Positions 23,241-31,271 of a DNA stretch of 64,000 nt are shown here, piece after piece (the first letter of the stretch is position 1; every line of letters begins with the position of its first letter). The stretch is taken from NCBI RefSeq assembly GCF_000626715.1, contig NZ_AQRA01000006.1, positions 310,001 through 374,000 on the forward strand. Reading direction: 5' to 3'. The stretch comes from Aquimarina atlantica. Its GTDB lineage: Bacteria > Bacteroidota > Bacteroidia > Flavobacteriales > Flavobacteriaceae. The position numbers and the translations under genes are program-made. The notes under the pieces were generated by a model. The model was not told where the DNA came from, did not search any database, and saw only the letters and a program-made list of their open reading frames with translations.

Positions 23241-25508
23241 ATGGCATTTGATATCAATATGATAAAAAAGGTATACAGTCAGGTAGCCGACCGTGTTAAT
23301 GCAGCACGCGAAGTTACAGGTAAACCTTTAACCTTGGCAGAGAAAATTTTGTATTCACACTTGTGGGACGTAAAAACAAAAAAAGCGTTTACAAGAGGTA
23401 AAGATTATGTTGATTTTGCACCAGATCGTATTGCTTGTCAGGATGCAACAGCTCAAATGGCATTATTGCAATTTATGCAAGCTGGTAAAAGTAAAGTAGC
23501 AGTACCAACAACAGTGCATTGTGATCACTTGATCCAGGCAAAAGAAGGTGCAGCAGCAGATTTAAAAAATGCTAATGATATTAGTAGTGAGGTGTTTAAC
23601 TTCTTAGAATCTGTATCCGATAAATATGGAATTGGATTCTGGAAACCGGGAGCAGGTATTATTCACCAGGTAGTATTAGAAAACTATGCTTTTCCTGGAG
23701 GTATGATGATCGGAACAGATTCACATACAGTAAATGCAGGAGGATTAGGAATGGTTGCAATTGGTGTAGGTGGAGCAGATGCAGTGGATGTTATGGCAGG
23801 TATGGCCTGGGAGTTAAAATTCCCTAAGTTAATTGGTGTAAAATTAACAGGTAAGTTATCGGGTTGGACAGCTCCTAAGGATGTAATTCTAAAAGTAGCA
23901 GAAATTCTTACGGTAAAAGGAGGAACTGGTGCCATAGTAGAATATTTTGGACCAGGAGCAACATCAATGTCATGTACAGGAAAAGGTACTATTTGTAATA
24001 TGGGTGCCGAAATTGGTGCTACAACATCTACCTTTGGTTATGACGAGTCTATGGAGCGTTACTTGAGAGCAACAGACAGAGCAGATGTAGCAGATGCAGC
24101 AAACGAAGTGAAAGAACACTTAACTGCAGATCCAGAGGTATATGCAAATCCAGAACAATATTTTGATCAGGTAATCGAAATTAATTTATCTGAACTGGGG
24201 CCATTGTTAAATGGGCCTTTTACCCCAGATTTATCAACAGCAGTTGGTAGTACTATGACAGAAAAAGCCAAAGCTAACGATTGGCCAATTCAAGTAGAAT
24301 GGGGATTAATAGGATCCTGTACGAACTCTTCTTATGAAGACCTATCTCGTGCTTCTTCAATAGCACAACAAGCGTTGGACAAAGGTTTAAAAATGAAAGC
24401 AGAATTAGGAATCAACCCAGGTTCTGAACAAGTAAGATATACGGCAGATAGAGATGGTATTCTTGGGATATTTGAAAAACTAGATGCAAAAATATTTACC
24501 AATGCTTGTGGACCCTGTATTGGACAATGGGCACGATATAACGATCCGAAAAACGCTCCCAAGAATAGTATTGTACACTCTTTTAATAGAAACTTTGCTA
24601 AGCGTGCAGATGGTAACCCTAATACACATGCTTTTGTTGCATCACCAGAATTAACGGCTGCAATTGCGGTCGCAGGGCGATTAGATTTTAACCCATTAAC
24701 CGATAAGTTAATTAACGAAAACGGTGAAGAGGTAATGTTTGATGAGCCAACAGGATGGGAGTTACCACCAAAAGGATTTGAAGTAAAAGATAATGGATAT
24801 TTAGCTCCGGTTGAAGATGGTAGTAATGTAGAAGTTAAAGTAAGTCCAACTTCAGAAAGATTGCAGTTGTTAACACCGTTTGTACCTATAGGTAATGAAA
24901 TTAAAGGAGCTAAATTGCTTATAAAAGCCTTTGGTAAATGTACAACAGATCATATTTCTATGGCAGGGCCATGGCTACGTTTCAGAGGTCATTTAGATAA
25001 TATTTCTAATAACTGTTTGATTGGAGCCGTAAATGCATTTGGTAAAAAAACAAACTTTGTTAAAAATCAATTAACAGGAGAGTTTGGTGGTGTACCAGAT
25101 ACGGCAAGAGCATATAAAGCTGCAGGAGTACCTACTATTGTTGTGGGAGATCATAACTACGGAGAAGGATCTTCACGAGAACATGCTGCAATGGAACCAA
25201 GACATCTGGGTGTTGCTGCGGTAATTGTAAAATCATTTGCCCGTATTCACGAAACCAACCTTAAAAAACAAGGAATGCTTGGATTAACATTCGCAAATGA
25301 AAGTGATTACGATTTGATTCAGGAAGATGATACGTTTAACTTTACAGATCTTGATCAATTTGCTGCAGGAAAACAATTGACATTAGAGATTGTTCATGCC
25401 GATGGATCTAAAGATACTGTTATGTTAAATCATACGTATAATGATTCTCAGATAGAATGGTTTCAAGAAGGTTCTGCATTAAACTTAATTAAAAAGCAGA
25501 ATGCTTAA
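23241..25508 (+). CDS. aconitate hydratase (mitochondrial-type)
   Basis: A 755-residue aconitase, interconverting citrate and isocitrate through cis-aconitate in the TCA cycle. Cluster-binding and active-site segments are intact: [52 protein letters not shown] with two cluster cysteines, and the swivel domain with [19 protein letters not shown]. The length suits the mitochondrial-like group usual in Bacteroidota rather than the roughly 890-residue AcnA type. Monocistronic, with a strong terminator. Confidence 0.96.
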
Positions 25509-25534: not shown

Positions 25535-25570
25535 AAAAACTCCCAAGGATTATTCTTTGGGAGTTTTTTT
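25535..25570. terminator. bidirectional terminator after aconitase
   Basis: AAAACTCCCAA ... TTGGGAGTTTT with flanking A and T runs, between the converging aconitase and leader-peptide genes. Confidence 0.88.
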
Positions 25571-25590: not shown

Positions 25591-25773
25591 TTAGTGAGGA
25601 AAACAGTCTACACTAACCCTAACACAAATTTGGTATTGAGGAGGAACTTGTTCGTATTGGCTACAAGTAACTATTGTAGGACCGTTGTAACCATCACATG
25701 GACCGCCACCATTAATTTGTTTTTGTTCTGTTCTAGATAAGCTTTTCCCTAAATTTAAAAGTGTATTTTTCAT
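25591..25773 (-). CDS. double-glycine leader peptide (RiPP/bacteriocin-type precursor)
   Basis: A 60-residue peptide. Residues 1-23 form a GG-type leader (LGKSLSRTEQKQINGG; compare the usual LS-x-x-E-x-x-x-I-x-GG), with cleavage expected after Gly23. The remaining core of about 37 residues holds four cysteines (positions 26, 37, 50, 57), three of them in GPC, VTC and VDC contexts, and ends FPH. Such peptides are exported by C39-peptidase ABC transporters and occur as orphan precursors in flavobacteria. No transporter or modifying enzyme lies within the window. Mature function is unknown. Confidence 0.7.
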   Translation of the reverse strand: MKNTLLNLGKSLSRTEQKQINGGGPCDGYNGPTIVTCSQYEQVPPQYQICVRVSVDCFPH

Positions 25774-25999
25774 AATTTTTTGTGTAATAATCCTGAACTG
25801 TATAGCTCTCAGGATATGAGCTTATCTATAAAAATACTATTTTTTTATATTCAATAAGTATATTGGATATTACCATAATACTAATTCTGAAGAAAAATCT
25901 ATACCCTTTAGAATTAAGAAAAACAAATTGGTATGGGAGCAGTATATCTCTTAAATATAAATTGATAAGTTTTTTTATTCCAAAACAGAAATATGTAAA

Positions 26000-26021
26000 T
26001 TTGCGTATATGGTACGCCAAA
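26000..26021. promoter_or_regulatory. candidate NrtR operator overlapping the nrtR start codon
   Basis: TTTGCGTA-TATGG-TACGCCAAA is an imperfect dyad that covers the ATG at 26009. A -7-like TAAATTTG precedes and overlaps it (25996-26003), but no good -33 box was found. It shares the TTTGCGT half with the sites at 26794 and 32152. Autorepression is the inference. Confidence 0.5.
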
Positions 26022-26689
26022 ATATAAAAGTAGCTGTCGATGCTGTAGTCTTTGGATATAAAGACAAGGCGCTTAATGTCTTGTTAATAAAAAGGAATAT
26101 AGATCCTTTTAAAGATTCCTGGGCTTTGCCGGGAGGTTTGGTTTTAGAAAACGAAAGTTTAGAACAAGCTGTTGTTAGGGAGCTTAAAGAAGAAACCAAT
26201 GTAACTATAGATTATTTAGAGCAATTATATTCTTTTGGTGACCCTGATAGAGATCCTAGAAACAGGGTAGTAAGCGTTACTTATTTTGCATTGGTTAAAC
26301 CAGAACATCATGCAATTAAAGCAGATACCGATGCACAAGATGTCGCCTGGTTTGATGTAACAGAACTTCCGGATTTGGCATTTGACCACATTCAAATTTT
26401 AGAAACTGCAAAAAAAAGATTGCAAAATAAACTCACATACGAACCTGTGGGATTTGATCTGCTTGCCGATAAGTTTTTGTTTTCGGATCTCGAAAAGTTG
26501 TATATGACTATCCTTCAAAAGGTAATTGACCGCCGAAATTTTAGAAAAAAAATACTGAGTTTCGGAATCCTTGAAGAGTTAGATGAAAAGATTTCAGAAG
26601 GAAGAGGTCGGCCGGCAAATCTATTTAAATTTAATAAAAAGCAATACTTCAAACTTAAAGAAGAAGGTTTTCTCTTCGATATCAAATAA
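26009..26689 (+). CDS. nrtR: NrtR family Nudix-related transcriptional regulator
   Basis: A 226-residue protein with a Nudix domain at 1-145 (VAVDAVVFGYKDKALNVLLI; Nudix box GGLVLENE ... VVRELKEETNV) and a C-terminal winged helix at about 150-226 (LEKLYMTILQKVIDRRNFRK, ISEGRGRPANLFKFN). This layout is that of NrtR, which represses NAD-metabolism genes and is released by ADP-ribose. The box keeps the REL-x-EE residues but has TNV in place of the canonical x-G-U, so hydrolytic activity is uncertain. It heads the NAD/ADP-ribose island, and its start lies inside an operator-like dyad. Confidence 0.85.
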   Translation: MVRQNIKVAVDAVVFGYKDKALNVLLIKRNIDPFKDSWALPGGLVLENESLEQAVVRELKEETNVTIDYLEQLYSFGDPDRDPRNRVVSVTYFALVKPEHHAIKADTDAQDVAWFDVTELPDLAFDHIQILETAKKRLQNKLTYEPVGFDLLADKFLFSDLEKLYMTILQKVIDRRNFRKKILSFGILEELDEKISEGRGRPANLFKFNKKQYFKLKEEGFLFDIK

Positions 26690-26765
26690 TAGTACCATTG
26701 TTTTAATACTATTGATCTTCAGAAAGATATATTTTATCATAATAATGTAGTTTTTACGCAAAATA

Positions 26766-26814
26766 TTTTGTCATATCATATTTCTATTATAAATTTGCGT
26801 AAAAATAACACAAT
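26766..26814 (+). promoter_or_regulatory. promoter and candidate NrtR operator of the prs-like gene
   Basis: TTG at 26768-26770, a 19-nt spacer, and -7 TAAATTTG at 26790-26797. The operator-like TTTGCGT-N7-ACACAAT at 26794-26814 overlaps the -7 box and ends 1 nt before the ATG. An inverted half-site TTTACGCAAA lies 41 bp upstream at 26753-26762, four helical turns away, which would allow cooperative binding. Confidence 0.6.
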
Positions 26815-26815
26815 T

Positions 26816-27643
26816 ATGAGATATTTACATTTGGACCCATCGTTTACACCTTTTGAAAAATCTATTGATTTTAAATCATTTGTTTTTAATGGGGGAGAAC
26901 CACATATAAATATTTTAGACAAGAATATAGGGAGTAGTATAACGATTACACAGCGAATCAATTCGTTTAATGATTTAGGATTGTTGTTGATTGCTACCGA
27001 TGCGTTACGCAGAATGAATGTAAAGGAGATTAATGTGTTTATTCCATATTTTCCTGCTGCCAGGCAAGATAGAGTGATGGTTGCAGGAGAATCACTTAGT
27101 GTTAAGGTATATGCCGATAGTATTAATGCACAACACTATAATCAGGTAACAATCTTTGATCCACATTCTGAGGTGACTCCAGCATTATTAGATCGGGTAC
27201 ATGTAGTTCAGAATTATGAATTTGTCAAACAATGTTTAGATAGCATTAAAGAAGAAGTAGTACTAATTTCTCCTGATGGTGGAGCGTTAAAAAAAATCTA
27301 TAAAGTATCTGAGTTTCTGGGAGGAGTAGAAGTGGTAGAATGTTCTAAAAAAAGAAATGTAAAAACAGGAGCTTTGTCTGGTTTTAGAGTTTATGAAAAT
27401 GATTTAAAAGGAAAACATTGTGTAATTGTTGATGATATTTGTGATGGAGGAGGAACTTTTCTAGGGCTGGCAACAGCACTAAAAGAAAAGAATGCAGGTA
27501 AACTAAGTTTGATTATCAGTCATGGGATTTTTAGCAAGGGATTTACTGAACTTACAAAACAATTTGATACCATTTTTACAACAAATTCCTTTAGAGATGT
27601 AGATGAAGAAAAAGTAGTGCAGATTCCTGTAATCCAAGAGTAA
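26816..27643 (+). CDS. prs: short Prs-like pyrophosphokinase (PRPP synthetase homologue; ADP-ribose kinase possible)
   Basis: A 275-residue member of the ribose-phosphate pyrophosphokinase family. The promoter at 26768-26797 forces the ATG at 26816 rather than 26768. Motifs: PYFPAARQDR with the catalytic Arg, the metal/PRPP site HCVIVDDICDGGGTF, and an ISPDGGALKKIYKV loop. It is about 40 residues shorter than housekeeping Prs (around 315). A canonical Prs makes PRPP from ribose 5-phosphate and ATP. Homologues paired with NadV in phages make ADP-ribose pyrophosphate instead (NARP1 Adps). Which substrate is used here is not decidable by eye. Confidence 0.8.
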   Translation: MRYLHLDPSFTPFEKSIDFKSFVFNGGEPHINILDKNIGSSITITQRINSFNDLGLLLIATDALRRMNVKEINVFIPYFPAARQDRVMVAGESLSVKVYADSINAQHYNQVTIFDPHSEVTPALLDRVHVVQNYEFVKQCLDSIKEEVVLISPDGGALKKIYKVSEFLGGVEVVECSKKRNVKTGALSGFRVYENDLKGKHCVIVDDICDGGGTFLGLATALKEKNAGKLSLIISHGIFSKGFTELTKQFDTIFTTNSFRDVDEEKVVQIPVIQE

Positions 27644-27678
27644 ATAAGAATCTATTTTGTGACAATAAATACTAAAAT

Positions 27679-28137
27679 ATGAATCTAGTAGTGCCGCCAA
27701 TTACTCCGGAATTGAATAAAGACCTAAGTGTTTTTTTAGCAGGAAGCATTGAATCAGGTGTTGCCCAAAAATGGCAGGATAAGGTAATAGAAGAGCTATC
27801 AGAAGAAAATGTTACACTACTAAACCCCAGAAGATTGAGTTGGGATGCTAGCTGGGAACAAAAGATAGATAACCCTGTTTTTAAAGAACAGGTGCTTTGG
27901 GAGTTAGAAGCTTTAGAAAAAGCAGATATGATCATTATGTATTTTGATAAAAACACAACATCTCCTATAACACTATTAGAATTAGGATTATATGCACGGA
28001 GTAATAAATTGGTAGTATGCTGCCCTGATGGATTTTGGAGAAAAGGAAATGTAGATATTGTCTGTGAACAGTATGGCCTACAAAAAGTGAATAGTTTAGA
28101 AGAATTGATTAATGAAGTAAAGAAGAAATTAGAATGA
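27679..28137 (+). CDS. nucleoside 2-deoxyribosyltransferase-like protein
   Basis: A 152-residue protein of the nucleoside deoxyribosyltransferase/YtoQ-like fold: SVFLAGSIESGVAQKWQDKV at the start, NPRRLSWDASWEQ, then ALEKADMIIMYFDKNTTSPI and LLELGLYARSNKLVVCCPDG, with the Asp and Glu expected to handle the N-glycosidic bond. In ADP-ribose operons this fold is proposed to cleave or exchange a nucleoside-type bond. The stop overlaps the NADAR start by 4 nt. Substrate unknown. Confidence 0.8.
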   Translation: MNLVVPPITPELNKDLSVFLAGSIESGVAQKWQDKVIEELSEENVTLLNPRRLSWDASWEQKIDNPVFKEQVLWELEALEKADMIIMYFDKNTTSPITLLELGLYARSNKLVVCCPDGFWRKGNVDIVCEQYGLQKVNSLEELINEVKKKLE

Positions 28138-28688
28138 AATACAATCTACAAAACATACAAGAGCAATTTAATAAAGGCAAAAAATTAAAGTACTTATTCT
28201 TTTGGGGGCATACTCCAAATAAAGATGGGAGTATAGGAAAAAGTTGCTTTAGCCAATGGTGGGAGTCTTCTTTTAAAGTTGATAATGTCAATTATAAAAC
28301 TGCAGAACATTGGATGATGGCAGAAAAAGCAAGATTGTTTAATGATATCGAAATAATAGAAGAAATCATCAAATCTTCGCATCCAATGGAAGCTAAACAA
28401 CTAGGAAGAAAAGTAAAAAACTTTGATCCAAAGGTTTGGGATGAACATAAATTTGAGATTGTAAAACAAGGAAACATTTATAAATTTTCTCAAAAAAATG
28501 AACTGAAGGATTTTTTACTAAATACCGGTAAAAGAATTATTGTTGAAGCTAGTCCCAGAGATCGTATCTGGGGAATAGGGATGAGTGAGAATAATGAAAA
28601 AGCAGAAAACCCTAATTTATGGAGAGGACAAAACCTGTTGGGGTTTGCTTTGATGGAAGTGAGAGATGAGTTAAAACAAGAGTTATAA
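28134..28688 (+). CDS. NADAR (YbiA/RibX-like) family protein
   Basis: A 184-residue NADAR-domain protein. Signature segments: LFFWGHTPN, CFSQWWESSFKVDNVNYKTA, EHWMMAEKARLF, HPMEAKQLGRKVKNFDP, IIVEASPRDRIWGIGMS and WRGQNLLGFALMEVRD. Family members hydrolyse N-glycosidic bonds, including removal of ADP-ribose from guanine in DNA (the DarT1 antitoxin role) or of damaged riboflavin intermediates. The genetic context of ADP-ribose enzymes favours the first. It starts inside the preceding gene and is followed by the macro-domain gene after 3 nt. Confidence 0.9.
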   Translation: MKYNLQNIQEQFNKGKKLKYLFFWGHTPNKDGSIGKSCFSQWWESSFKVDNVNYKTAEHWMMAEKARLFNDIEIIEEIIKSSHPMEAKQLGRKVKNFDPKVWDEHKFEIVKQGNIYKFSQKNELKDFLLNTGKRIIVEASPRDRIWGIGMSENNEKAENPNLWRGQNLLGFALMEVRDELKQEL

Positions 28689-28691
28689 AAA

Positions 28692-29168
28692 ATGAAAACA
28701 ATAACATATTTAAAAGGAGATGCGACTATCCCTCAAGCAAAAGGAATTAAGATTATAGTACATATTTGTAATGATTTAGGAGGTTGGGGAAAAGGTTTTG
28801 TGTTGGCGATTTCTAAAAAATGGACAGAACCGGAGAAAGCGTACAGAAAGTGGTATCGTGATCGAGCAAATAATGATTTTGAGTTAGGTGCAGTTCAACT
28901 AATTCAAGTTTCGGAAGAACTGTATGTAGGTAATATGATCGGGCAACAAGGAATAAAAATAAAGAAAAACGAAGTTCCGATTCGTTATGAAGCAGTTAAA
29001 CAATGTTTAGAACAAATTGCAATTAAAGCAAAACAACTTAATGCAAGTATACACATGCCTAGAATTGGTTGCGGATTAGCAGGAGGAAAGTGGAAAATGA
29101 TAGAGCCCATTATTACAAATACACTATTAGAAAAACAATTAGACGTTTATGTCTATGATTTTAAATGA
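28692..29168 (+). CDS. macro domain protein (TARG1/ALC1-type)
   Basis: A 158-residue stand-alone macro domain. The ADP-ribose binding loops are YLKGDATIPQAKGIKIIVHI, CNDLGGWGKGFVLAISKKW and HMPRIGCGLAGGKW. The short form and the PRIGCGLAGGKW loop are most like the TARG1/OARD1 or ADP-ribose 1''-phosphate phosphatase-like group, which remove ADP-ribose from acidic residues or DNA bases, or process ADP-ribose phosphate. It follows NADAR by 3 nt and precedes kptA by 3 nt, so translation is likely coupled. Confidence 0.88.
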   Translation: MKTITYLKGDATIPQAKGIKIIVHICNDLGGWGKGFVLAISKKWTEPEKAYRKWYRDRANNDFELGAVQLIQVSEELYVGNMIGQQGIKIKKNEVPIRYEAVKQCLEQIAIKAKQLNASIHMPRIGCGLAGGKWKMIEPIITNTLLEKQLDVYVYDFK

Positions 29169-29171
29169 AAA

Positions 29172-29713
29172 ATGAAAACAAACAATAAACATATAAGTAA
29201 ATTTTTAAGCCTTATTCTAAGGCATAACCCTGATAAAGTAGGAGTGCAACTCGATGAAAATGGTTAGATGTACAGGAGTTACTGCAAAAAGTAAATAGAT
29301 ACCGACCAGGATTAGATATGGATGTATTAGAAGAAGTTGTAGCATCTTGTGATAAACAGCGCTTTGCTTTTAATGAAGATCATACCAGGATTAGAGCCAA
29401 TCAAGGCCACTCGATACAGGTAGATTTAGAGTATCAACCCAAGCAGCCGCCAGAATTCTTGTATCATGGTACTGTAGCCAAATTTATGGGTGCCATTAGA
29501 GAAAAAGGATTGCTAAAAATGAACAGGCATCATGTGCATCTTAGTGAAGAAAGAGAAACAGCTATAAAAGTAGGATCCAGAAGAGGAAAACCTATTATTC
29601 TAACTGTAAGATCAGGCGAAATGTATGCCAGGGGCATTAAGTTCTATCAATCGGAGAATAAAGTATGGCTAACCGATATAGTAGCTCCAGAATATATTGA
29701 GTTTAAATCATAA
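29172..29713 (+). pseudogene. kptA: RNA 2'-phosphotransferase (Tpt1/KptA), frameshifted
   Basis: KptA moves a 2'-phosphate from RNA to NAD+, releasing nicotinamide and ADP-ribose 1'',2''-cyclic phosphate. The first frame (29172-29267) encodes SKFLSLILRHNPDKVGVQL with the RH catalytic pair, then hits TAG. The second frame resumes at 29261 with WLDVQELLQKVNRYRPGLD and keeps FAFNEDHTRIRANQGHS, PPEFLYHGT and VHLSEERETAIKVGSRRG. Family alignment expects ...DENGWLD; a 4-bp loss of one copy of an ATGGATGG tandem explains the shift. A protein made from the internal ATG at 29318 would lack the RH motif. Real mutation, programmed -1 shift or sequencing error are all open. Confidence 0.85.
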
Positions 29714-29720
29714 TATATCC

Positions 29721-29753
29721 AGACCTCACAGGTTTTTAAAACCTGTGAGGTCT
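29721..29753. repeat. REP-like perfect palindrome
   Basis: The arms AGACCTCACAGGTTTT and its reverse complement flank a single T. It sits in the 66-nt gap between kptA and the oxygenase gene, inside the operon. It resembles short interspersed palindromes of flavobacteria; only one copy was seen in the window. It could also act as an intra-operonic attenuator or an mRNA-stabilising hairpin. Confidence 0.65.
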
Positions 29754-29779
29754 TAGTCAATTATAAAGAATAATCTAAA

Positions 29780-30328
29780 ATGAAAAGGAAAGAATTACAT
29801 CCAGAAATATTTCTTATTGAAAATTTTCTCTCTAAAGAAATGTGCGATCAATTTATTGAAAAAGGAGAACAGGTTTCATTTGAAGAAGCTAAGGTTAATA
29901 TTGACGGTAGGCAGGTAATGGTAAAGGGTATTCGTAATAACCAAAGAATCCTTTTTAAAGATGAAGAACTGGCACAATCGATTTGGTTAAAAATAGAACC
30001 CTTTATAGTTGAGACTTTTGGAAATTACAAAGCAGTTGGCCTTAATGAAATGTTTAGGATATATAAATACGAAGAAGGACAACGTTTTAAGATGCATAGA
30101 GATGGGAGTTATAAACGAAATGAATATGAATGTAGTTTTTTCTCATTCTTAATATATCTAAATGAAGATTTTAATGGAGGGGAAACTTATTTTGATGAAG
30201 GGATTACAATTGTCCCAAAAATTGGGGATGCTCTGGTGTTTTACCATCCGTTACGCCATGAAGGAAAACCAATATTATCTGGAACAAAATATGTGTTAAG
30301 AACAGATATTATGTATAGACGATTGTAA
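29780..30328 (+). CDS. 2OG-Fe(II) oxygenase (prolyl 4-hydroxylase-like)
   Basis: A 182-residue P4Hc-type dioxygenase. The iron ligands are seen in FKMHRDGSY (His, Asp) and FYHPLRHEGKPI (distal His), and the 2-oxoglutarate Arg lies in KYVLRTDIMYRR. FFSFLIYLNEDFNGGETYF is the usual double-stranded beta-helix strand pair. It has no signal peptide. The substrate is unknown; within an ADP-ribose cluster it may hydroxylate a protein, nucleic acid or nucleotide. It lies downstream of the palindrome and 34 nt before the ADP-ribosylglycohydrolase gene. Confidence 0.88.
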   Translation: MKRKELHPEIFLIENFLSKEMCDQFIEKGEQVSFEEAKVNIDGRQVMVKGIRNNQRILFKDEELAQSIWLKIEPFIVETFGNYKAVGLNEMFRIYKYEEGQRFKMHRDGSYKRNEYECSFFSFLIYLNEDFNGGETYFDEGITIVPKIGDALVFYHPLRHEGKPILSGTKYVLRTDIMYRRL

Positions 30329-30362
30329 CAATAAGGTTTAAGTTGTATAACAAAAAAGTAAA

Positions 30363-31271
30363 ATGATTACTAAAAAAGAAAGATTTCTTGGTTCTATGTT
30401 TTTAGGAGCTATTGGTGATGCTATAGGAAGTGGATATGAAAATGTAGAACAAGCCGAAGAGAATATCTTTTATCCTTTTGGAAAACCAGAGGAGAAAATA
30501 CCGGATTGGAATATTACAGATGATACGCAATTAACATTAGCGACTTGTGAAGCATTGATTGAAGATCCTTTTTTGGATCCACAAACACTATCTAGTTATT
30601 TTATATCTTATTTTACTAATGGAATGATTAGGGGAATTGGAGCCTCGACGTTAAAAGCTTTTAGGGAACTCCAAATCGGTTTAGATTGGAGTCAGACTGG
30701 TAGAAGAGGAGAATATTCTGCAGGTAATGGAGCAGCAATGCGCATCGCTCCAATAGCTTTTTTTAAAAATATTTCAAGAGAACGAATAGAACAAATATGC
30801 TCCATAACGCATTATAATTCTGAGGCATATGTTGGGGCTCTAGCAGTAATTCTTGCAATTAAAACCATTATAGAAGAGAATTGGATAAATGAAATAAGTT
30901 TAATGGAATTAATTACTTCGGATTTACCAGATTCAAAAGTAAAAGATAGGTTACTAGAATTAGATATTTTGTCTAAAACAAAATCAATAACAGAAATTGC
31001 TAGTTTAGGGAATGATGGATATGTTGTTAATTCAGTTCCTTTTTCGATTTTTTCTGCAAATATGATAAAAGAAAAACCTATTGATGTTATTTTCGATGAA
31101 ATTATAAATAGCGGTGGAGATACCGATACGAATTGTTCAATAACCGGACAAATAGTGGGAACTTATATTGGTTATAATGGTATACCTGAATATTTGAAAG
31201 ATAATTTAAAGAAATTGTCTGAATATTCATTGATGAATAATATTATTAATAGGTTAAGTGAAGAAGTGTAA
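30363..31271 (+). CDS. ADP-ribosylglycohydrolase family protein
   Basis: A 302-residue ARH/DraG-type hydrolase. Metal and ADP-ribose sites are present: GSMFLGAIGDAIGSGYE, NITDDTQLTLATCEAL, RGEYSAGNGAAMRIAPIAFF, and INSGGDTDTNCSITGQIVG, whose Asp residues bind Mg2+. Members release ADP-ribose from arginine or serine, or split ADP-ribosylated small molecules. It is followed 2 nt later by the metallophosphoesterase, so the pair is translationally coupled. Confidence 0.93.
   Translation: MITKKERFLGSMFLGAIGDAIGSGYENVEQAEENIFYPFGKPEEKIPDWNITDDTQLTLATCEALIEDPFLDPQTLSSYFISYFTNGMIRGIGASTLKAFRELQIGLDWSQTGRRGEYSAGNGAAMRIAPIAFFKNISRERIEQICSITHYNSEAYVGALAVILAIKTIIEENWINEISLMELITSDLPDSKVKDRLLELDILSKTKSITEIASLGNDGYVVNSVPFSIFSANMIKEKPIDVIFDEIINSGGDTDTNCSITGQIVGTYIGYNGIPEYLKDNLKKLSEYSLMNNIINRLSEEV

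Follow-up and report, generated by a model that had tools for sequence, protein, structure and literature searches.

A Gly-Gly leader peptide of Aquimarina atlantica, encoded apart from its probable exporter, and the predicted RNA pseudoknot that precedes many peptides of its scattered family

Results

Genes and features at the locus

The window (the whole stretch of Aquimarina atlantica DNA analysed here, 64,000 nucleotides on contig C6) carries on its minus strand a gene for a small precursor peptide, which lies tail to tail with an aconitase gene (23241-25508, plus strand) and whose start faces an NrtR-type Nudix gene (26009-26689, plus strand). The features of the locus are these:

25591..25773, minus strand: precursor peptide gene, 60 aa, ATG start, stop codon 25591-25593
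25705..25773, minus strand: Gly-Gly leader, 23 aa, MKNTLLNLGKSLSRTEQKQINGG, from leader profile A3
25594..25704, minus strand: predicted mature core, 37 aa, cysteines at precursor positions 26, 37, 50 and 57
25536..25567: inverted repeat, a terminator-like hairpin common to aconitase (plus) and the peptide gene (minus), read from the sequence
25774..25837, minus strand: conserved upstream tract with the pseudoknot and an A/T-rich stretch before the ATG, from an alignment of 8 regions
25790..25822, minus strand: predicted H-type RNA pseudoknot; P1 pairs 25818-25822 with 25804-25808, P2 pairs 25809-25815 with 25790-25796

The original prediction, a Gly-Gly leader followed by a core of 37 residues with four cysteines, is confirmed by a 60-residue frame on the minus strand that is conserved in 10 homologues; neither the strand nor the conserved upstream element had formed part of it. 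Similar inverted repeats lie 3' of the stop codon in homologues. A Pfam search of the precursor found no family, and the NCBIfam model NF047798 (leader_Chryseo, 'bacteriocin-like protein'), whose leader end is weakly similar to that of the window leader, scores 14.9 bits (E 0.022) against a cut-off of 23.5, so that the precursor is not a member. AlphaFold2 gave a peptide model of mean pLDDT 75.3 and pTM 0.47, with block means of 72-90 over residues 21-60; we give no weight to the 13 Foldseek matches of this model to the PDB (best E 2.4), and a search of solved structures with the peptide profile reached only E 0.093 at best. When the surrounding ORFs were read, neither an immunity or receptor gene nor a lanthipeptide or graspetide modifying enzyme was recognised beside the peptide gene.

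The region 26009-31271, beside the peptide gene, is an NAD/ADP-ribose gene island comprising NrtR-Nudix, PRPP-synthetase-like, nucleoside deoxyribosyltransferase-like, NADAR, Macro, KptA and ADP-ribosylglycohydrolase genes. A functional tie between the peptide and these NAD-related neighbours was considered and dropped, because NrtR adjoins the gene in only six of 10 relatives of the genome set and six of 10 Aquimarina loci. Aconitase is adjacent in eight of 10 relatives of the genome set, as read from ORFs, and in nine of 10 full-length Aquimarina loci. One homologue (genome G040) stands beside a nicotinamide-phosphoribosyltransferase-like gene, so named by reading, and another (G010) lies elsewhere.

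Conservation and selection

Across 52 Aquimarina genomes the peptide has a match at E <= 0.001 in 28, and 11 sequences, itself included, align over residues 1-59 or more, with an identity of at least 56% in that search. The ten homologues are 55-83% identical to the window peptide, and M1, K2, G22, G23 and all four cysteines are invariant in 11 of 11. The ratio pN/pS is 0.31 over all pairs (0.37 in the leader, 0.28 in the core) and 0.20-0.42 for the window gene against each of the 10 homologues. The peptide gene is real and under purifying selection. Matches to its core profile, A4, occur in two other genera also.

A dispersed family of leaders

The search for related leaders and C39 transporters that the original prediction had suggested was made over the whole genome (5.69 Mb). 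It returned 22 matches at E <= 0.01 to a leader profile of 21 sequences, together with three C39 genes, to which we return below. The window peptide itself has 15 matches at E <= 10, the best of them to another leader of the genome at E 3.0e-5; the window leader scores E 2.1e-13 against profile A3, but is among the 21 rows of that profile. The other leader-bearing peptides of the genome differ in their cores, many of which contain four or six cysteines. The description of the gene as an orphan stands with respect to position only, and fails with respect to its leader, since the genome encodes many related ones.

The leader type has a narrow distribution: at E <= 1e-4 it was found in at least 7 of the 395 genomes searched in the order. 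This and the other genome-search counts are lower bounds, because the large searches did not score every candidate (3 per genome for the fusion gene described below, at most 22 for the leader and 123 for the pseudoknot).

Two further groups of loci were observed. Contig C1 of the same genome carries a tandem array of six-cysteine peptides (G000:C1:912900-914700, L068) with leaders like MKNILELTGVQKLSKQQQRNIKG, beside which no exporter was recognised. The core type of the window peptide is encoded in three Chryseobacterium loci (L106, L107 and L112), there behind a different leader, and in 34 genomes of genus g35 (loci L119-L147); the Chryseobacterium core arrays lie between threonine-pathway and quinolinate-synthase-like genes, both named by reading.

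A predicted pseudoknot upstream of the peptides

In eight aligned homologous upstream regions the mean column identity is 87%, and the homologues resemble one another more closely just before the ATG than in the spacer further upstream. Different peptides of the family have upstream regions with a common order, P1a - loop - P2a - P1b - loop - P2b, in which P1 would pair the first segment with the third and P2 the second with the fourth, the arrangement of an H-type pseudoknot; AGACACAAACCTTGAGTGTCTTTAAATGTTCAAGG is a typical element. In the window, P1 is AGCTC/GAGCT and P2 is ATCCTGA/TCAGGAT, and the element ends 16 bases 5' of the start codon, outside the frame at 25591-25773 with which the original prediction dealt. 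Two homologues that also lie beside aconitase (L041 and L093) have AGACAC/GTGTTT for P1 and TCCCTGA/TCGGGGA for P2. A covariance model finds the pseudoknot in nine of the 11 homologues, with none in the homologues of G040 (L042) and G010 (L043). No Rfam 15 family matches the element, whether up to E 5 at 14 loci or up to E 10.

Bacteroidetes-type promoter motifs were sought just before the pseudoknot, and because TAnnTTTG matched in only 1 of 57 cases and TTG-N15-22-TAnnTTT in 3 of 57, no promoter is claimed.

A fixed-geometry scan gave scores of at least 26 in 40 of 117 upstream regions of the peptides, against 9 of 489 regions before ORFs of at least 150 aa; many peptides must therefore lack the element or carry it further upstream. 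The covariance model (R1), which knows only P2 and uses no annotation, was run over the 52 Aquimarina genomes and matched at E <= 0.01 in at least 43. The genomes without a match (G004, G006, G020, G021, G030, G034, G035, G039 and G049) are those without the leader, except that G012 has a match and no leader, and G021 a leader and no match. The window element, itself a seed of R1, scores 27.5 bits (E 0.0049) against the model; it is not among the matches listed by the genus-wide search, and judged by the bits of those matches it would probably miss the limit of E <= 0.01 used there.

We opened 70 hits, 30 at loci given by the search and 40 picked by hand from the lower part of the list. In 67 of them the next 60 bases contain the start of an ORF (35-120 aa) that encodes a Gly-Gly-like leader and two or more cysteines. 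For 66 of these 67 the ATG follows the end of the match by 18-28 bases; the median is 22. With the seven elements identical to seeds left out, 60 of 63 pass, representing 58 distinct peptides, and the same peptide test applied at random positions is passed by 171 of 20,000. The three failures comprise two lipoprotein-like ORFs (L166 and L214) and one hit without an ORF (L215). Of 72 distinct matches in 47 sources, 67 pass the test, the failures being the lipoprotein-like ORFs of L166 and L150 and three matches without a passing ORF. The cysteine number is even in 57 of the 67 peptides. Several leader types stand behind pseudoknot matches, some of them LanC-cluster-like to the eye. The three Chryseobacterium loci and the g35 loci that carry the core type gave no pseudoknot match at E <= 0.1.

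The lipoprotein-like ORFs that follow a pseudoknot are at L166:1568-2377, at L150:10664-11470 and in L214. Those of L166 and L150 are complete; they match no Pfam family over its cut-off and are not similar to each other. A role in immunity or as a receptor would be a guess. Separately, a further palindrome of the type TTCTCTCGCGAAGAA, allowing up to 2 mismatches, lies directly 5' of the pseudoknot in nine of the 70 opened hits (L155, L166, L167, L168, L178, L181, L193, L214 and L221), and also in the arrays L148-L150.

Pairing was assessed in three sets of elements. Among 38 hand-picked elements 92.7% of cells pair and 63 are changed on both sides, compared with 18.1 (s.d. 3.4) in shuffles, and sliding the register brings pairing down to 26-49%. 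In two less biased sets, in which 6 rows out of 40 and 2 out of 43 are copies of seeds, the paired proportions are 97.8% and 96.0%. Changes on both sides, G-U pairs included, affect five of the six P2 pairs in each of the three sets; for P1 they affect all six pairs in the hand-picked set and one of six in each less biased set. Two whole-structure measures in one less biased set, the pairs with a change on both sides (64/500) and the further pair types (73/500), were not beyond shuffles. Judged from these alignments, P2 is well supported by covariation, and the prediction of P1 rests on pairing of 95-98% in three sets together with covariation in the hand-picked set, which includes homologues of the window.

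The same alignments bear on the possibility that the element acts as DNA, its two overlapping inverted repeats serving as a regulator-binding site or as a recombination site that shuffles peptide genes. That the peptide genes occur both in arrays and scattered would suit such a role, as would the further palindrome beside nine of 70 elements. A DNA operator should conserve its sequence, however, while P2 changes sequence and keeps its pairing in all three alignments; further points against it are that P1 and P2 interleave and that the distance to the ATG is so nearly fixed. We consider a DNA element improbable, and the element is treated in what follows as a putative RNA pseudoknot.

Exporters and a C39-like/VKOR fusion protein

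As the original prediction stated, neither a C39 transporter nor a modifying enzyme lies near the gene, C39 genes and full C39-like/VKOR genes being found on other contigs. The three C39 genes over cut-off are on contigs C1, C2 and C9, with none on C6; the C1 exporter is accompanied by LanC, the C2 exporter by a lantibiotic dehydratase and the C9 exporter by an ATP-grasp gene, which scores 224.8 against a cut-off of 230 with the grasp-with-spasm maturase model. The genome thus has three RiPP-like clusters (L063-L065), of LanC, lantibiotic dehydratase and grasp-with-spasm-like type. The C9 exporter, with HlyD alongside, has a C39 domain containing DCGPTC, an ABC membrane part and an ATPase part, all of which it shares with the C39-ABC exporters of TIGR01193, TIGR03796 and their relatives, and it falls below the cut-off of the 25 NCBIfam models examined out of 193 matched. 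It shares 30-32% identity with the exporters of C1 and C2.

A second class of weak C39 match in the genus consists of proteins of about 530 aa, membrane proteins in which C39-like, VKOR and thioredoxin (DsbA-like) domains are fused. Their first 130 residues contain no cysteine in six of six cases, and a CxxC occurs in both the VKOR part and the thioredoxin part. Two full copies of the fusion gene are present in the A. atlantica genome, on C16 and C2, neither being on C6; the alignment of the C2 copy continues past the stop at the gene's end. The VKOR domain of the genome's own fusion protein scores 49.1 bits against a Pfam cut-off of 27.5. For the C39-like domain, where the cut-off is 22, four relatives score 26.0, 28.1, 34.1 and 22.9 bits and the own copy 16.2. 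A search of solved structures with the own fusion protein gave no match at E 0.01. Against the eight clustered fusion proteins compared, the C16 protein reaches only 27-33% identity.

The C9 exporter is 73-92% identical to exporters in four other genomes, where these are clustered with peptides of the window leader type or directly adjoin the C39-like/VKOR gene. The clusters concerned, with one more distant, are:

L081 (Aquimarina G010): a single cluster of peptides, HlyD, the fusion gene and an exporter with 73% identity to C9
L084 (Aquimarina G005): fusion gene separated by 8 bases from an exporter that shares 92% identity with C9
L148 and L149 (both from one further genus of the family): fusion gene, HlyD and an exporter sharing 74% identity with C9
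L114 (a Sediminibacterium MAG): fusion gene, leader peptide, thioredoxin-like gene, C39-ABC gene (54% identical to C9) and HlyD, in that order

Loci L148 and L149 hold arrays of 17 and about 21 Gly-Gly peptides with very different cores, most of them with the window leader type (by eye) and some with the window core type. Pseudoknot elements lie there 3' of the fusion gene, exporter and HlyD and before the next peptides; from this position they may raise the output of peptides above that of the machinery.

The leader and the fusion gene occur together. Among 46 Aquimarina genomes at least 90% complete, 41 have both and five have neither, with no discordant genome; over all 52 genomes, 43 have both, one (G012) has the fusion gene only and eight have neither. 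A C39 domain as such is present in 45 of the 46 good genomes and does not track the leader. The Fisher value for leader and fusion gene in the 46 genomes is 7.3e-7, but it ignores relatedness and cannot be read as a probability, related genomes not being independent in such counts. At the level of the order (395 genomes), at least 37 genomes match the core profile, at least seven have the leader type and at least 66 the fusion gene, and the genomes with the core profile and those with the leader type are all among these 66. Physical linkage is found for a minority: of 150 leader rows, 23 have a fusion gene no more than 5 kb away, where 0.6 would be expected if every genome were taken as 5.5 Mb; nine of 74 fusion genes are involved. 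Most leaders, that of the window included, are more than 5 kb from any fusion gene.

Because its close relatives sit in clusters with the leader peptides or the fusion gene, while the C1 and C2 exporters are only 30-32% identical to it, the C9 protein is the likely exporter of the window peptide, although the assignment, cleavage after Gly-Gly and secretion are all inferred from sequence. The suggestion that the peptide is a distant substrate of a shared exporter is accordingly well supported by the clusters in other genomes. The C9 stretch does contain the grasp-with-spasm-like ATP-grasp gene and its own small peptides, and for this reason the natural load of the exporter may be these neighbouring peptides.

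These neighbours raise the question of whether the window peptide is instead the precursor for a RiPP enzyme set (LanC of C1, the lantibiotic dehydratase of C2 or the grasp-with-spasm-like enzyme of C9) and not a simple disulfide peptide. All three clusters hold Gly-Gly peptides and C39 exporters, and pseudoknots also precede other leader types, including those that look LanC-cluster-like. Yet in the 46 good genomes neither the leader nor the fusion gene is ever found without the other, LanB, LanC and ATP-grasp were not recognised, by reading only, in the relatives' clusters that carry the window leader, and the cysteine number is even in 57 of the 67 peptides, all of which makes a RiPP precursor unlikely in our judgement. 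The available part of a graspetide survey reports that a C39 peptidase is not typically encoded at ATP-grasp loci (PMC8939145).

On the window's own contig, a possible C-terminal remnant of the fusion gene (G000:C6:234515-234631; L087, L066) was noted, with 39 residues at 46% identity and E 0.003; it lies just before three leader peptides (C6:234.5-235.9 kb), about 101 kb from the window gene. Together with the absence of any machinery gene near the peptide gene, such a remnant could be taken to mean that the gene has lost its partners and that its product is no longer made or exported. We find a relic barely credible, given the pN/pS of 0.20-0.42 against each homologue, the four invariant cysteines, an upstream element kept in nine of 11 homologues, and a full exporter and full fusion gene elsewhere in the genome.

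Discussion

Our essential contention, to which we give a probability of roughly three in four, is that the window gene encodes a secreted disulfide peptide of a scattered family, which shares the C9 exporter and the C16 fusion protein with other members and is under the control of the upstream pseudoknot; secretion, disulfides and control by the pseudoknot are inferred. We envisage a short mRNA, the 5' part of which would fold into the pseudoknot just ahead of the A/T-rich start. That its distance to the ATG hardly varies points to an effect on how ribosomes reach the message or on how long the mRNA lasts, and the pseudoknot may in this way set the translation or stability of the message, so that dispersed peptides would be expressed together; a ligand or protein might be sensed by it. 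The C39-like part of the fusion protein would then bind the leader and present the core to the VKOR and thioredoxin parts, which would make two disulfides in it. Without a cysteine the C39-like domain should not cut, and it would be the true C39 domain of the C9 exporter that cuts after Gly-Gly, the core being exported.

Parts of this scheme have analogues elsewhere. HlyB-type transporters possess an N-terminal, cysteine-less C39-like domain that is presumed to bind substrate; there it is carried on an ABC transporter, whereas in the fusion protein it is joined to VKOR and thioredoxin. The preQ1-I riboswitch is likewise a small H-type pseudoknot, of about 35 nt and with two interleaved helices, situated just before a coding region. 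The window type is similar in size, helices and place, but the genes it serves encode Gly-Gly peptides, and the sequences of preQ1-I-like riboswitches are not known to be related to it.

The nearest working model, as far as the available part of the source allows, is that of the bacteroidetocins, class IIf bacteriocins of Bacteroidales with a Gly-Gly leader of 15-16 aa and four genes located together (PMC6671954). Bacteroidetocins A and B have four cysteines, and the system includes an exporter of the C39-ABC type and a thiol oxidoreductase, as well as a membrane protein, deletion of which reduces activity (PMC6671954). The window peptide resembles them in its Gly-Gly leader, in the four cysteines of the predicted mature peptide and in the C39-ABC exporter assigned to it. 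Its leader, however, is 23 aa long against the 15-16 aa given for bacteroidetocins (PMC6671954); their oxidase parts appear as separate proteins, whereas in Aquimarina the C39-like, VKOR and thioredoxin domains make up one; and their genes are together, while the window gene has neither exporter nor full C39-like/VKOR gene on contig C6. No upstream RNA element is mentioned in the part of that source available to us (PMC6671954), in contrast to the pseudoknot at the window gene. In the open-licence PMC literature, to which our search was restricted, we found no report of a C39-like/VKOR fusion or of a pseudoknot before Gly-Gly peptides.

As to the use of the mature peptide, for which there are no activity data, growth inhibition of competitors is the most likely and signalling comes second. 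A signal sensed by the producer's own kin would accord with the slow evolution of the precursor (55-83% identity in the genus), which is unlike an expected arms race, and with the failure to recognise an immunity gene beside the peptide gene. No receptor gene was recognised there either, though, and the two arrays of the other genus, whose 17 and about 21 cores differ greatly, better fit a mixture of inhibitors; a signal accordingly remains a doubtful, though not negligible, alternative to the inhibitor that we prefer.

A bolder extension, which we put forward tentatively and would not yet wager on, is that the pseudoknot represents a new class of cis-acting RNA, one that senses a ligand or protein and switches scattered peptide genes, up to two dozen or more in a genome, all together, alongside a VKOR fusion protein that reads the leader and makes the disulfides of these peptides. 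If this were true, an RNA knot and a common leader, and not gene order, would unite a regulon of secreted peptides.

Gly-Gly peptides without an adjoining exporter easily stay unexplained. Here one such peptide has led to a dispersed set, a probable exporter and an unusual disulfide-forming enzyme, which seemingly recognises the leader; it is the pseudoknot marking many of the set, together with the leader-linked VKOR fusion, that sets the finding apart from the peptide alone. The pseudoknot offers a DNA signature by which peptides of this kind may be found without knowledge of their leader, which is possible because its matches precede several leader types, and it raises the question of what an RNA knot standing before so many peptides responds to.
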